Origin: a beta proteobacterium AAP51
GTDB taxonomy: Bacteria > Pseudomonadota > Gammaproteobacteria > Burkholderiales > Burkholderiaceae_C
Assembly (NCBI GenBank): GCA_001295905.1
Contig: LJHT01000016.1
Coordinates: 1 to 64,000 of the forward strand
Direction of reading: 5' to 3'
Length of the DNA stretch: 64,000 nucleotides
In this document: in pieces, positions 28,118-38,084 of the stretch
Layout of the letters: every line of letters starts with the position of its first letter
Numbering within the stretch: the stretch's first letter is position 1
Notes under the pieces: model-generated
What the model was told of the DNA's origin: nothing
What the model saw: only the letters and a program-made list of their open reading frames with translations
Databases searched by the model: none
Program-made: the position numbers and the translations under genes

Positions 28118-28699
28118 TCAGGCCGGCATGCGGCGCCGCACCAGCCCACCCACGGCCGCCAGGCCCAGACCGAACATCAGCCAGGTGCCGGGCTCGGGGA
28201 TGACGGACACCGTGATGCCTTGCGTCTGCGCCGGGATGTCGAGCAGGGCGGAATCGAGCAGCACCACATCGGCCAGCTGAAGCACGCTGCTGCCCACGGA
28301 CGTGGCGTTGAAGTTCAGGCTGGCCAGCACGCCGTTGCCGTTGACACCCGGCAGCACGCCCAGCAGCGAACCCACGGTGAGATTCACCCGGCCCAGGGTG
28401 TTGTTCACGCTGCCGGGCACGAAGAAGGTGGTGCCACCCGCGCCAAGGAACGCGCCTTCTGTGGGCGCGCTGGCCTGCAGCACGGCCGGGTTGAAGAGCA
28501 AGGAGAACTGGTAGGCGTAGAGATCGATGGCACCGCTGATGAGCACGTTGACCTGCACATTGCCGCCAGGCACCACCGGGTTCGGGCTCGCGGCCAGCGA
28601 CACCACCGGCACGGCCTGCGCCGTACCGGCGCCAAGGACACCCAGAACGCCCAGAACCGCCGCTGCGACGGCCTGCCTGCAAAACTGCCCGTGCTTCAT
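28118..28699 (-). CDS. PEP-CTERM surface protein with a cohesin-like domain
   Basis: A 193-residue exported protein. The signal peptide (QAVAAAVLGVLGVLGAGTAQA) is followed by one beta-sandwich domain with cohesin features: VVPGGNVQVNVLISG, YAYQFSLLFNPAVLQ, EGAFLGAGG, GNGVLASLNFNATSVG and LQLADVVLLDS. This matches the order of the type I cohesin fold that binds dockerins. The C-terminus is a textbook PEP-CTERM sorting signal (VIPEPGTWLMFGLGLAAVGG, then RRR), recognised by an exosortase and linked to outer-surface display. I started at the Met at 28699. A gene 1 kb away codes a dockerin-bearing protease. Confidence 0.85.
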   Translation of the reverse strand: MKHGQFCRQAVAAAVLGVLGVLGAGTAQAVPVVSLAASPNPVVPGGNVQVNVLISGAIDLYAYQFSLLFNPAVLQASAPTEGAFLGAGGTTFFVPGSVNNTLGRVNLTVGSLLGVLPGVNGNGVLASLNFNATSVGSSVLQLADVVLLDSALLDIPAQTQGITVSVIPEPGTWLMFGLGLAAVGGLVRRRMPA

Positions 28700-28843
28700 C
28701 TTGTATGGCTCCATGGTGGATAAGGGCGCGCGCGCCACGCTGGGTGCTGCCCCTGGCTGTTGCGATGGTGTCATCTTCGGCTGCGGCTGCGGCAGCCGCC
28801 GTGCCGCCACCCCCCGCATTCAAGGGAGGGGCCTGACGCGCAC

Positions 28844-29392
28844 CTAACGCTTATCAGGTACGAAGCGCAGTAGAGCCTGTTGGGCCGCCACCGCGTCCAG
28901 CAACTGCTGCAGCGCGGCCGGGCCGGCCTCTTCTCGGCGGAACACCGCGTGCTGCTGCGCGCCCCGCACGGCCGCCAGCGTCGCCCAGCTGCCATCCTGC
29001 AGGCCCGCCTCCTGGTAGCTGGGCGCCATCTCGAAGAAGCCGCTGGCCAGCAGCTGGCGCGCCAGTTCGTCGAAGGCCGGCTGCGGCAGGCTGGCGCGCG
29101 CCACGCTGTCGGCCTGGCCCAGCTTGGCATTGCCGGTGGTGCTGAGCACGGCCGTGCCATCACGCCGCAGCTCCAGCCGCGTGGTGCCGGGGCAGCCGAA
29201 GCAGCTGCGCTCCAGCGTGATCAGGCTGATGTCGTGCGCCGGGCGCCCAGGCGCTGCAGCGCCCGTCACGGTCGCGGGCGCTTGTGCGCAGGCCGGCAGC
29301 AAGAGCGCGGCGCCCAGGGCAGCCAGCCACTGCCGACACCCCCGCCAAGGACGGACTTTGCAGCCCCTGAATGAGGGGGTGAAAACGGGCAT
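28844..29392 (-). CDS. DUF6438-like lipoprotein
   Basis: A 182-residue predicted lipoprotein. LAALGAALLLPACAQ is the signal with lipobox LPAC, so the mature Cys would be lipidated. The following segment ISLITLERSCFGCPGTTRLELRRDGTA has the CFGxCP-type start seen in DUF6438 proteins, whose function is unknown. I used the Met at 29392, which has GGAGAG just upstream. It lies between the cohesin-like protein and the dockerin-bearing peptidase, on the same strand as the former. Confidence 0.7.
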   Translation of the reverse strand: MPVFTPSFRGCKVRPWRGCRQWLAALGAALLLPACAQAPATVTGAAAPGRPAHDISLITLERSCFGCPGTTRLELRRDGTAVLSTTGNAKLGQADSVARASLPQPAFDELARQLLASGFFEMAPSYQEAGLQDGSWATLAAVRGAQQHAVFRREEAGPAALQQLLDAVAAQQALLRFVPDKR

Positions 29393-29650
29393 GGGGCTCT
29401 CCGAAGACTGACCACGTTCATAGCAGAACCTCCACAATTTGTGCGGCTGTCTGCGCGCCGGCTCCAGCATTACCCTGATATGTGATGGTGCCTGCTGCAG
29501 CGCATGATTCTTGCCTATGCAAGGTCATGAAGGCCTGAGGTCCCTGCGGTTTGCCATTTCCGCCGGGGCTCGATGGCCGTCTCGTTGTTCACCCGCCCCG
29601 CCCGCCTCGGCCCTCCGACGGCAGACGTCAGGCTTCGAAGAGGATCCTCG

Positions 29651-32600
29651 ATGAAGATGTTCCGTCCGTCCCCCCTGCCGCAGCTGTCGCGCGGCACTCT
29701 GGCCGCGGCCGCCGTGCTGTCCGCTGTGCTGACCGGTGTGGCCTTGTGGCCCGCCGAAGCTCAAGCGCAGGCGCGTGCGGTTGCCGGCAGTGCGAACGCC
29801 CGTGTGGCCCCGGCGGCGGTGGATGCCGCCCGCCACCCCACGCGTGCCTTCTGGCAAGACCAGCGCGGCGCGCCGGCGGCGCGGTCGGCGGCGGGGGCCG
29901 AGCCCTCGGTGCGTGCCGCGCGCGTGCGCGCCGTCACGCTGGACAAGCTCAGCCTGGCCGGCCTGCTGCAGGCCGCACCGGCCGAGCGCAGCAGCGCCGC
30001 CCGCCTGAGCCCGGTGGTGATGGTGCTGCCTGACCCCGCTGGTGGCTACCAGCGCTTCTCGGTGGTTGATTCCCCCATCATGGAACCCGGCCTGGCCGCA
30101 CGCCACCCCGGCATCAAGACCTACGCCGGCCGCGGCATCGACGACCCCACCGCCTCGCTGCGCATGAGCGTCACGCCGCTGGGCGTGCAGGCCTCGGTGC
30201 GCGCGGCCAAGGGCTCGTGGTACGTGGAACCCTACTACCAGCTCGACCAGAGCCTCTACGCCAGCTACTACCGCGCCGACGTGCCGCGCCGCGTCACCAG
30301 CTTCAGCGAAGGCCTGATGCGCCAGGCGCAGGTGTCGCTCTCGCGCGGGCGCTACCACGCCGCCAACGAGGTGCTGGTGGAAGGCCTGGGCTTCGTGCCC
30401 AACGGCGCCGTCACCATCACCGTGCGCCAGGGCGGCCAGGCCGTGGTGCGCCAGACCCTCTACGCCACCGCCAGCGAAGACGGCACCCTCAGCGCCAGCT
30501 TCAAGGCCGAGCCCTACCGTGGCCTGGGCAGCTACGAAGTGACCGTGAGCGACGGCCGCAGCAGCGCCACCACCACCTACGAGGTGGTGGCCGACAGCGC
30601 ACCGCTGATGGCCTCGGTGGGCAACCAGCTGCGCACCTACCGCCTGGCCCTGTTGACCGACCCCGCCTATGCCAACTTCTTCGGCGTGGCCAACGTCACC
30701 GCGGCCAAGGTTCAGCTGATGAACCGCGTCAACCAGGTCTATGAAGACGAGCTCTCGGTGCGCATGGTGCTGGTGGCCAACAACGACCTGCTGAACCTGA
30801 ATACCGCAGCGCAGTTCTCGCAGCCCAACGGCCCTTGCGGCGGCACGGCCTGCTACCCCACGGCCTCGGTCACCTGCTCGGGCACCACGCTGACGCGCAC
30901 GCGCACGGTCATCGGCCTGCTCATCGGTGCCAGCAACTTCGACGTCGGCCACATCGCCGTGGGCGCTGGCGGCGGCGGCATTGCCAGCCTGGGCGTGGTG
31001 GGCCTGGCCGGCAAGGCCCAGGGCTGCACCGGGCTGCCCTCGCCCGATGGCGACGTGTTCGCCATCGACTACGTGGCCCACGAACTCGGCCACCAGTTCG
31101 CCGGCAACCACACCTTCAACGGCGTGGTGGGCAGCTGCTCGGGCGGCAACCGCAGTGCCAACAACTCGGTGGAACCGGGCAGCGGCACCTCGGTGATGGC
31201 CTACGCCGGCATCTGCGGCGCCGACAACACCCAGAGCAACAGCGACCCGTATTTCTCGCAGCGCAGCTTCGACGAGATCACCACGCACATCAACGCCGCC
31301 GAAGTGAACCTCACCGAGGTGCAGCAGGCCGCGCTGACGGCCTTCACCACCAACGGCCAGCAGTTCGTGCTGCGCTACAACGGCGCCGATTCGGCACCCA
31401 TCGTGCGTGGCACCAACTTCACCACGGCCGGCATCCAGGCGGCGGTGCAGGGCATTGCCGGGTGGCCGGCGGGGGGCACGGTGAGCATCTCCTCGCTCAC
31501 CGATACCGGCTTCACCATCGGCTTTGGCGGCGCCCTGGCGGGCCAGAACGCGGCCGAGCTGCAACTGGTGAACTGCACCGGCGGCTGCACGGGTTTCATC
31601 GGCGAGATCACCAAGGGCGGCATCAGCACCCGCGGCGGTCTGGCCACGGCCACCGGCAACACCGCGCCTGCGGTGGTGACGCCTGCAGCCTTCACCATCC
31701 CGCTGCGCACGCCTTTCGCGCTGACCGGCAGCGGCACCGATGCCGAAGGCGACGCCCTCACCTACATGTGGGAACAGACCGACCGCGGCGGCGCGGCGGG
31801 CACCGCCCTCACGAACAACACCAAGGTCGACGGCCCGCTGTTCCGCCAGTTCGGCACGCGTGCGGTGTTCAACGCGAACATCTACGCACCGCCGGGCCAG
31901 AACCAGACCACCGGCAACCCGACGCGCGTGTTCCCTGACCTCCCGCAGATCCTCATCAACAACACCAACGCGGAAACCGGCAGCTGCCCTGCCGTCGTCG
32001 GCACCCCCACCGCGGCGCAGATCGACTGCTACTCGGAGTTCCTGCCCAACGCCAGCTACGCGGGCTTTGCGGGTGTGAACGCGAGCCCGGCGCGTCTGAA
32101 CTTCCGCCTCACGGTGCGCGACGGCCGTGGTGGCGTGAACAGCGGCAACACCGTGCTGACGCTGGCCCCGGGCACCGGCCCCTTCCTGGTGACGGCGCCC
32201 AACACCGCCACCACGCTGGAGGCCGGTTCGCCGGTGACGGTGACCTGGGACGTGGCCGGCACGAACGCCGCGCCGATCGGCACGACGCAGGTGAGGATCA
32301 GCATGTCCGGCGACGGCGGCCTGACCTATCCCTTCGTGATGGCCGCCGCCACGCCCAACGACGGCAGCCAGGTGGTGACGGTGCCGCTGATCAACTCGAC
32401 CACGGCGCGCATCAAGGTCGAGGCGGTGGACAACGTGTTCTTCGACGTCTCCAACGCCGACCTGACGGTGGTGCTGCGCGCCGACCTCACCGGCGACGGA
32501 CAGGTGGGCTGTGCCGACCTGGCGGTGGTGCGCGGCCTGCTGGGCCTGCGTGTGGGCGACCCGGGCTTCGACCCCCGCGCCGACTTCAACGCCGATGGCG

Positions 32601-32668
32601 TGATCGACGTGCGCGACTTGGCCTACGTGACGCTGCGCGTCACGATCGGTGTGCGCTGCCCCGCATGA
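29651..32668 (+). CDS. Secreted zinc metallopeptidase with C-terminal dockerin-like domain
   Basis: A 1,005-residue exported protease. The order is: signal peptide (ending near AEAQAQA), a propeptide-like region (about 80-240), an Ig-like segment (about 240-320), a reprolysin-like peptidase domain with zinc motif HELGHQFAGNH (His 477, 481 and 487, Glu 478) and a Met-turn at SVMAYAG, then PKD/Ig-like repeats. Finally, residues 945-1005 carry two calcium-loop repeats, DLTGDGQVGCAD (945-956) and DFNADGVIDVRD (978-989), the pattern of a dockerin. I used the Met at 29651, which has AGAGG upstream; another Met lies at 29573. Dockerins bind cohesins, and a cohesin-like PEP-CTERM protein lies nearby. 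A strong terminator follows at 32781. Confidence 0.88.
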   Translation: MKMFRPSPLPQLSRGTLAAAAVLSAVLTGVALWPAEAQAQARAVAGSANARVAPAAVDAARHPTRAFWQDQRGAPAARSAAGAEPSVRAARVRAVTLDKLSLAGLLQAAPAERSSAARLSPVVMVLPDPAGGYQRFSVVDSPIMEPGLAARHPGIKTYAGRGIDDPTASLRMSVTPLGVQASVRAAKGSWYVEPYYQLDQSLYASYYRADVPRRVTSFSEGLMRQAQVSLSRGRYHAANEVLVEGLGFVPNGAVTITVRQGGQAVVRQTLYATASEDGTLSASFKAEPYRGLGSYEVTVSDGRSSATTTYEVVADSAPLMASVGNQLRTYRLALLTDPAYANFFGVANVTAAKVQLMNRVNQVYEDELSVRMVLVANNDLLNLNTAAQFSQPNGPCGGTACYPTASVTCSGTTLTRTRTVIGLLIGASNFDVGHIAVGAGGGGIASLGVVGLAGKAQGCTGLPSPDGDVFAIDYVAHELGHQFAGNHTFNGVVGSCSGGNRSANNSVEPGSGTSVMAYAGICGADNTQSNSDPYFSQRSFDEITTHINAAEVNLTEVQQAALTAFTTNGQQFVLRYNGADSAPIVRGTNFTTAGIQAAVQGIAGWPAGGTVSISSLTDTGFTIGFGGALAGQNAAELQLVNCTGGCTGFIGEITKGGISTRGGLATATGNTAPAVVTPAAFTIPLRTPFALTGSGTDAEGDALTYMWEQTDRGGAAGTALTNNTKVDGPLFRQFGTRAVFNANIYAPPGQNQTTGNPTRVFPDLPQILINNTNAETGSCPAVVGTPTAAQIDCYSEFLPNASYAGFAGVNASPARLNFRLTVRDGRGGVNSGNTVLTLAPGTGPFLVTAPNTATTLEAGSPVTVTWDVAGTNAAPIGTTQVRISMSGDGGLTYPFVMAAATPNDGSQVVTVPLINSTTARIKVEAVDNVFFDVSNADLTVVLRADLTGDGQVGCADLAVVRGLLGLRVGDPGFDPRADFNADGVIDVRDLAYVTLRVTIGVRCPA

Positions 32669-37365: not shown

Positions 37366-37478
37366 AACCCCCCGCGGCGGCAGATCTCCCCCCGATGTGC
37401 GGGGTGACCGTTCGGTGTGAACTTCTTCACCATCGGTCAGCGCATGTGCGCCTTCAACCCTTCAGAACGGATGCCGTC

Positions 37479-38084
37479 ATGAGATTTGCCCACTTCGCTT
37501 TCTCCGCCCTGGCGCTGGCTGCTTCGGCGGCTGCTTCCGCCCAGACCACCACCTACGTGAGCCCGGCGGCCTTCTTCGCCAACGTGGCGCCCGGCTCCTA
37601 CACCGAGGGCTTCGCCGACCCCTTCTTCAGCGGAGACCCTTCGGCCAGCTTCTCGGGGGGCCTGTTTTCGTACACCGTGTCTGCGCCGGGCGGCCTGTAC
37701 GGCAACGGCGTGTTGATCGGCACCAACCTGCCGACCGAGGCCCTGACCATCACCTTCACGGGCGCGCCCGTCACGGCGCTGGGGGGCAACTTCTGGGCCA
37801 CGAACATCTCCGACGTGTTCCAGCCCGTGCCGGTCACGCTGACGCTCAGCAACGGGACTGTGACCACCTTCACCCCGGCCAGCGAAACCGTGGGCAGCTT
37901 CCGTGGCTTCACGACGGCGGTGCCGATTCTTTCCCTGCAGATCACCTCGACCACCGGTGTCTACGCCGGCATGGACAACTTCACCGTCGGCAGCGTCGTC
38001 CCGGAACCCGGCACTTGGCTGCTGATGGGCCTGGGCCTGGGCGCCTTGCTGCTGCGCCAGTCGCGCCGCGCGGCATCCGTCTGA
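37479..38084 (+). CDS. PEP-CTERM surface protein
   Basis: A 201-residue secreted protein: signal peptide (FSALALAASAAASA), a Thr/Ser/Gly-rich all-beta middle (about residues 25-170), and a PEP-CTERM tail (VVPEPGTWLLMGLGLGALLL, then RQSRR). Such proteins are sorted by an exosortase and often appear with exopolysaccharide. No exosortase or polysaccharide gene lies in this window. I started at the Met at 37479, where the signal peptide begins. The function of the beta domain is unknown. Confidence 0.88.
   Translation: MRFAHFAFSALALAASAAASAQTTTYVSPAAFFANVAPGSYTEGFADPFFSGDPSASFSGGLFSYTVSAPGGLYGNGVLIGTNLPTEALTITFTGAPVTALGGNFWATNISDVFQPVPVTLTLSNGTVTTFTPASETVGSFRGFTTAVPILSLQITSTTGVYAGMDNFTVGSVVPEPGTWLLMGLGLGALLLRQSRRAASV

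Follow-up and report, generated by a model that had tools for sequence, protein, structure and literature searches.

A PEP-CTERM cohesin beside a dockerin-bearing secreted metallopeptidase: a probable two-gene surface-capture cassette in Burkholderiales

Does a small cohesin protein with a sorting tail capture the secreted, dockerin-bearing peptidase encoded beside it? The question is raised by two neighbouring genes of the beta proteobacterium AAP51 (order Burkholderiales), located in a stretch of 64,000 nucleotides, hereafter the window (assembly GCA_001295905.1, contig LJHT01000016.1, positions 1 to 64,000 of the forward strand): a gene for a cohesin-PEP-CTERM protein at 28118..28699 on the minus strand, and a gene for a zinc metallopeptidase with a C-terminal dockerin at 29651..32668 on the plus strand. 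An initial annotation, made from the sequence alone, proposed that the cohesin protein is placed on the surface by exosortase and recruits the protease there, as a version of the cellulosome. The pairing of cohesin and dockerin is not a matter of chance, and the two genes probably form a surface-capture cassette in which the PEP-CTERM cohesin would hold the secreted dockerin peptidase of its neighbour.

The cohesin protein has 193 amino acids (aa) and one cohesin, as assigned from the open frame, Pfam, AlphaFold2 (AF2) and Foldseek. In a whole-protein Pfam scan PF00963 matched at E 6e-7 with 30.2 bits against a cut-off of 24.1, and in a six-frame search at 30.8 bits; the Pfam extent of the domain is 28229..28570 on the minus strand. 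The PEP-CTERM sorting tail (28133..28201, minus strand) scored 26.0 bits with PF07589, for which the cut-off is 20.7, and 22.6 bits, again above cut-off, with TIGR02595, and it displays the PEP motif, the hydrophobic stretch and the basic end together. Signal peptides of this protein and of the peptidase were read by eye. The AF2 model, computed from a 27-row alignment, reached a mean predicted local distance difference test (pLDDT) value of 96.1 and a predicted template modelling score (pTM) of 0.89, and all 50 matches listed in a Foldseek search of the PDB were cohesins, or scaffoldin fragments or complexes containing one. Superposition of 2y3n_A on the predicted structure (TM 0.82, root-mean-square deviation 2.4) indicated the cohesin jelly-roll fold. 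Furthermore, profile A4, consisting of 27 rows of such cohesins, matched solved cohesins, with 3l8q as the best at 1.4e-15. A protein-database search in which 8,000 candidates were scored found 105 homologues; 65 of them carry PF00963 and PF07589 together by our own count, and automatic annotation has given some of them labels like "cohesin domain-containing protein" or "Cohesin domain/PEP-CTERM motif". The architecture is already annotated by machines, and no discussion of it in print was found.

The neighbouring gene encodes a secreted M12B-type zinc peptidase of 1005 aa, recognised from its open frame and Pfam. Its reprolysin-like catalytic domain lies at 30689..31228 (plus strand; PF13574, Reprolysin_2, E 4.7e-31) and contains the zinc motif HELGHQFAGNH at 31079..31111, read by eye as HExxHxxGxxH; the metzincin motif together with the PF13574 domain places the enzyme among the M12B reprolysin-like peptidases. 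The nearest named homologues found belong to Rubrivivax rivuli (78% identity) and Beta proteobacterium AAP65 (77%), Rubrivivax being placed in the Sphaerotilaceae of the Burkholderiales. At the C-terminus, 32480..32632 on the plus strand, PF00404 and profile A2 recognise a type I dockerin, whose two calcium loops are DLTGDGQVGCAD and DFNADGVIDVRD. A dockerin was taken here to have two calcium loops of 12 residues each, the ligands being at positions 1, 3, 5 and 12; the window loops read D1/T3/D5/D12 and D1/N3/D5/D12, so that position 3 of the first is T rather than N or D. PF00404 scored 22.4 bits on the whole peptidase, just below its cut-off of 22.9, and 27.7 bits, above it, in the six-frame search. 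Profile A2, composed of 13 dockerin rows including the four of this genome, scored the window dockerin at 98.9 bits, the window row being among its training rows, and reached solved dockerins, best 2y3n_B at 6.9e-16. For solved complexes such as 2y3n, 1ohz, 2ccl, 5nrk and 5lxv, one partner was found by A2 and the other by A4. Both protein identities proposed by the initial annotation were borne out: a cohesin with a PEP-CTERM tail and a zinc peptidase ending in a two-loop dockerin, with cohesin and dockerin each matched by hidden Markov models that reach solved structures of its kind.

The same arrangement recurs within the genome. At E up to 10, PF00963 gave five matches in five separate frames: four are short proteins that end in a PEP-CTERM-like segment, and the fifth is the C-terminal domain of a GspD-type secretin. 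Two of the four short proteins exceed the cohesin cut-off (the window protein at 30.2 bits and L012:958-1566 at 27.0) and two fall below it (20.6 and 14.6); two likewise exceed the PEP-CTERM cut-off of 20.7, the others lying just under it (19.2 and 19.0). A dockerin gene adjoins all four. The partner in the window is the peptidase, separated from its cohesin by one lipoprotein gene; the other three are an RHS/PKD protein whose dockerin is N-terminal, a protein of 653 aa whose dockerin is C-terminal, and a VWA-dockerin-PKD-PASTA-RHS protein in which Pfam missed the dockerin. At E up to 0.001, A2 detected four dockerins and no others in this genome, every one adjacent to a cohesin, though all four are among the A2 rows. 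The search for further pairs thus yielded three PEP-CTERM cohesins besides that of the window, each beside a dockerin gene. Three exosortases (PF09721) are encoded in the genome, one of them on the contig of the window but outside it (C53:97601-98365).

Homologues of the peptidase reveal how closely the cohesin follows the dockerin. Of 27 homologues, 13 have a dockerin tail and 14 have none; a neighbouring cohesin frame, each with a PEP-CTERM end, was found for 11 of the 13 tailed proteins versus 0 of the 14 tailless ones. With the window included the counts are 12/14 versus 0/14 (Fisher 3e-6), and the association holds at 1.2e-5 when the window and the near-duplicate L019 are left out. The cohesin gene is divergent in Rubrivivax/Paucibacter-type loci; in those of Rugamonas, Massilia, Pseudoduganella and Herbaspirillum it lies downstream in the same orientation. 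Since its position differs between these types, the link survives rearrangement. Two Duganella homologues stop just before the dockerin and have no adjoining cohesin, though their genomes hold exosortases, and exosortase matches occurred in 13/13 genomes with a dockerin-tailed peptidase. In 4 of 5 scanned Bacteroidota homologues a type IX secretion system (T9SS) sorting tail occupies the end where the dockerin sits, and the end of the peptidase therefore looks like an exchange site for surface-sorting modules.

Wider samples gave the same picture. In the family sample of 79 other genomes (80 with our own), the independent Pfam cohesin model produced 15 matches outside the own genome, 8 of them in frames of up to 600 aa, and 7 of these 8 adjoin an A2 dockerin gene, where random placement expects 0.02. 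Starting from the dockerins, 26 matches were found outside the own genome, 16 with a cohesin in the adjacent gene and two with a cohesin two genes upstream; the tails of the 16 adjacent cohesins carry a literal PEP in 15 cases and AEP in one, and the PEP-CTERM cut-off was passed by 6 of 10 partner cohesins scanned. With the own genome and secretin-sized frames set aside, A4 found 17 cohesins, of which 16 belong to pairs already found, a result that is circular because the profile was built from these loci. Exosortase matches were present in 42/80 family genomes and in 14 of the 15 holding dockerins, the own genome included (Fisher 3.2e-4). The class sample (273 other genomes) and the order sample (249 others) both lie outside the training loci of the profiles. 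In the class sample, cohesins were found in 17 genomes and dockerins in 17, with both in 10 (17 x 17 / 273 = 1.06 expected; Fisher 5.9e-10), and the modules are adjacent in 10/10 genomes holding both, where random placement gives 0.05. In the order sample, short-frame cohesins (up to 320 aa) occurred in 8 genomes (10 matches), dockerins in 13 and both in 7; the modules adjoin in 7/7 genomes with both (7/10 matches), counting G408, whose giant dockerin frame begins about 640 bases after a PEP-CTERM cohesin, and 5 of the 7 pairs have literal PEP tails. Cohesin and dockerin genes therefore co-occur and stay neighbours across relatives. Among 37 paired dockerins, position 1 is D in 37 first loops and 36 second loops, position 12 is D in 37/37 of both, and both full loops fit the calcium pattern in 36/37.

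The cargo attached to the dockerin varies. Enzymes in other cassettes include two GH10 proteins (L045 and L050), a gingipain-type C25 peptidase, a subtilase, two proteins of metallo-beta-lactamase fold, a phospholipase-C-type phosphoesterase and an endonuclease I with an exo/endonuclease-phosphatase domain, while further cargos carry RHS/PASTA/PKD domains or propeller repeats; several of 19 scanned cargo proteins gave no Pfam match beyond the dockerin, or none at all. Distances among cohesins and among dockerins correlated with r 0.771 over all 37 pairs; without the peptidase pairs, 25 remained and r was 0.696. When one pair was drawn per BLAST-unrelated cargo group (n=11), the mean r was 0.58 and p did not exceed 0.005 in any of 60 draws, and for Burkholderiales loci alone (8 groups) it was 0.63, with a median p of 0.002 and a maximum of 0.027 in 100 draws. 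Since the distances correlate across unrelated cargos, cohesin and dockerin diverge together even where the cargo differs, which supports specific pairing.

Based on these findings, a model is proposed in which the cohesin protein would be exported by Sec and then sorted by exosortase through its PEP-CTERM tail, to end up at the cell surface or within the exopolysaccharide layer. The peptidase would be secreted separately, perhaps by type II secretion, and its dockerin would be caught by the cohesin through calcium-dependent binding; the design of one cohesin beside one cargo recurs with other secreted proteins. We infer the binding, its calcium dependence, the surface or matrix location and the route across the outer membrane, and the tail together with the three genomic exosortases points to exosortase placement of the window cohesin. 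Each cassette is most likely a single-cohesin receptor, on the surface or in the matrix, for its own secreted partner. The recruitment of a protease to the surface, as first proposed, fits the profile matches and the conserved neighbourhood, but "version of the cellulosome" is too strong a term for one cohesin per protein and a peptidase cargo. Whether the loci amount to a general plug-in display of exosortase bacteria, with PEP-CTERM cohesins as single-slot sockets and pairs that co-diversify and swap cargo, is about an even question.

A number of results weigh against the capture model. In the family sample, genome G056 has a cohesin without a dockerin match, and 8 of the 26 dockerins have no cohesin neighbour found: three in G053, three in giant frames, L057, where the neighbour is a PEP-CTERM protein other than a cohesin, and L067. 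G053 is also the sole dockerin genome without an exosortase match, and none of its frames matched a cohesin. Two of the adjacent cohesins, in L065 and L066, match weakly (E 4e-6 and 3e-4 within their loci) and were not recovered in the A4 search of the family-sample genomes, and no A4 cohesin match was obtained in the genomes of the dockerin-tailed homologues L018 and L020, both metagenome-assembled. Of the 17 cohesin-bearing class genomes, 7 gave no dockerin match at the threshold of the search; when the loci were searched with local sensitivity, two dockerin neighbours emerged in G292, a dockerin within the cohesin frame in G256 and a weak match upstream in G285 (E 0.0016). The 10 class-sample pairs include just 3 literal PEP tails, with 6 looser hydrophobic-plus-basic ends and one without any, and order-sample cohesins without a dockerin occur in G600 and in two of three cases in G411, the latter at contig ends. 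Many modules rest on the profiles made here, the Pfam models being less sensitive: Pfam placed 3 of 10 partner cohesins above cut-off and 4 below, with 3 unmatched at E 0.1, and of 19 dockerin proteins it placed 8 above and one below, with 10 unmatched at E 0.001. A2 also matches calmodulins at about 1e-5, more weakly than dockerins, as might be expected of EF-hand proteins, and PF00404 at E up to 10 matched in 9/14 control genomes, above cut-off in 2; weak dockerin matches therefore mean little alone. Finally, correlated divergence would also follow from co-inheritance without binding.

In the strongest of the rival explanations, cohesin protein and peptidase have a common locus and a joint function in the extracellular matrix without binding each other, the cohesin attaching to polysaccharide or another partner and the dockerin serving as a calcium-stabilised end cap. 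It draws on the cohesins and dockerins that stand alone and on the ties of PEP-CTERM proteins to exopolysaccharide and floc formation described in the portions of PMC9850573 used here, but is unlikely given that the divergence of the modules is correlated across unrelated cargos, that cohesin and dockerin are jointly present or absent beside the peptidase, and that A4 and A2 match the two partners of solved complexes. More improbable still is that the dockerin serves for export, as a tag recognised by the C-terminal cohesin of the type II secretin, with the PEP-CTERM cohesin in a secondary role. The genome does encode a GspD-type secretin with such a cohesin (36.6 bits; L011:12295-14787, contig C134), located no more than about 10 kb from one cohesin/dockerin pair and from genes that resemble GspE and GspG by eye; in the family genomes G028, G033 and G076, however, a cohesin in a secretin-sized frame is accompanied by no dockerin match, and in the order sample a dockerin match was obtained in 2/19 genomes with a cohesin in frames of secretin size (750-955 aa), which are putative secretins. 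Because cohesins in such frames mostly occur without dockerins, the secretin cohesin is the less likely partner. That an immunoglobulin-like sandwich and EF-hand-like repeats were misread as cohesin and dockerin is scarcely credible: the whole-protein dockerin score just below the Pfam cut-off, the weak false PF00404 matches in this genome and the reach of A2 to calmodulins would allow it, but the fold search, the profile matches to solved structures and the adjacency of the genes argue otherwise.

Between the two genes lies a gene for a lipoprotein with a DUF6438-like domain (28844..29470, minus strand; lipobox LPAC by eye), for which a Mago nashi-like fold was predicted. Translation of its frame may begin later than the first ATG, an internal one at 29392 being likelier by eye. 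The lipoprotein, suggested as a possible part of the system, is kept as third gene at this position in Rubrivivax/Paucibacter-type loci only. As an Emfourin-type protease inhibitor the window protein stayed below the curated cut-off, at 16.3 bits against 27; 3 of 11 lipoprotein members gave Emfourin matches at E up to 1, the best at 4.3e-4. Elsewhere in the window a second PEP-CTERM protein, not a cohesin, is encoded at 37419-38084 and has conserved counterparts in L016 and L017, the two nearest relatives. Among the other loci, the cohesins of L056 and L063, whose genes sit two genes upstream of the dockerin gene, have a PEP-like segment, after which come another hydrophobic segment and an additional C-terminal part. 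L082 and L086 combine cohesin and dockerin in one frame, possibly as self-assembling or chain-forming proteins, and giant frames of about 9,600 to 14,300 aa with a dockerin-like module occur in L054, L064, L068, L094, L098, L099 and L100, those of L054 and L064 being RHS-like by eye in the stretches read.

If the general plug-in display exists, it would let bacteria hold enzymes through a receptor, as an alternative to the fusion of a sorting tag with the enzyme, and would offer a means of keeping public-good enzymes private. If the capture model is true, the cassette would explain the retention of large secreted enzymes with the cell or matrix. PEP-CTERM proteins are numerous and, to our knowledge, the tasks of most are unknown; one subset would be given the concrete job of catching a named neighbour. 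It would also take cohesin-dockerin assembly beyond multi-enzyme scaffolds, to the capture of single partners on the surface of Proteobacteria, and could supply new, perhaps orthogonal pairs for Gram-negative surface display. The recurrence with other enzymes in many relatives suggests a little-noticed means by which such bacteria retain secreted enzymes on their surface.

In the open-access literature no paper was found that joins cohesin or dockerin with PEP-CTERM, and dockerin and exosortase were found jointly for anaerobic methanotrophic (ANME) archaea only; the cassette is a variant of cohesin-dockerin assembly not found there. ANME archaea likewise have non-cellulosomal cohesins and dockerins, and some of these organisms also hold archaeosortase/exosortase genes, but the portions of PMC5244752 and PMC9012536 drawn on do not present them as cohesins that carry a sorting tag and pair with an adjacent cargo gene. 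With the PEP-CTERM/exosortase system (PMC1569441) the cassette shares the tail and the exosortases; such tails are taken as exosortase-processed and linked to exopolysaccharide and floc formation in the parts of PMC9850573 and PMC11980579 consulted, whereas here the tailed protein is a likely receptor for another secreted protein. Like the clostridial cellulosome (type I/II), it has a cohesin and a two-loop dockerin, and its best solved matches are cellulosomal. It differs in having one cohesin per protein beside its own cargo in a Gram-negative, and in that a PEP-CTERM tail replaces the SLH or sortase anchor. It was not classed as a cellulosome: the 193-aa window protein, with its one cohesin, is no multi-cohesin scaffoldin, and the window cargo is a peptidase rather than a plant-cell-wall-degrading dockerin enzyme. 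The closest described design found is that of Cloacimonadota, for which the sections of PMC8542988 used here report a T9SS-anchored multi-cohesin scaffoldin of 3,755 aa with a conserved C-terminal attachment domain, together with dockerin peptidases. There, too, the capture of dockerin peptidases by a sorting-tailed cohesin protein was inferred from genomes, but by one multi-cohesin scaffoldin in place of the single cohesins with PEP-CTERM tails described here.

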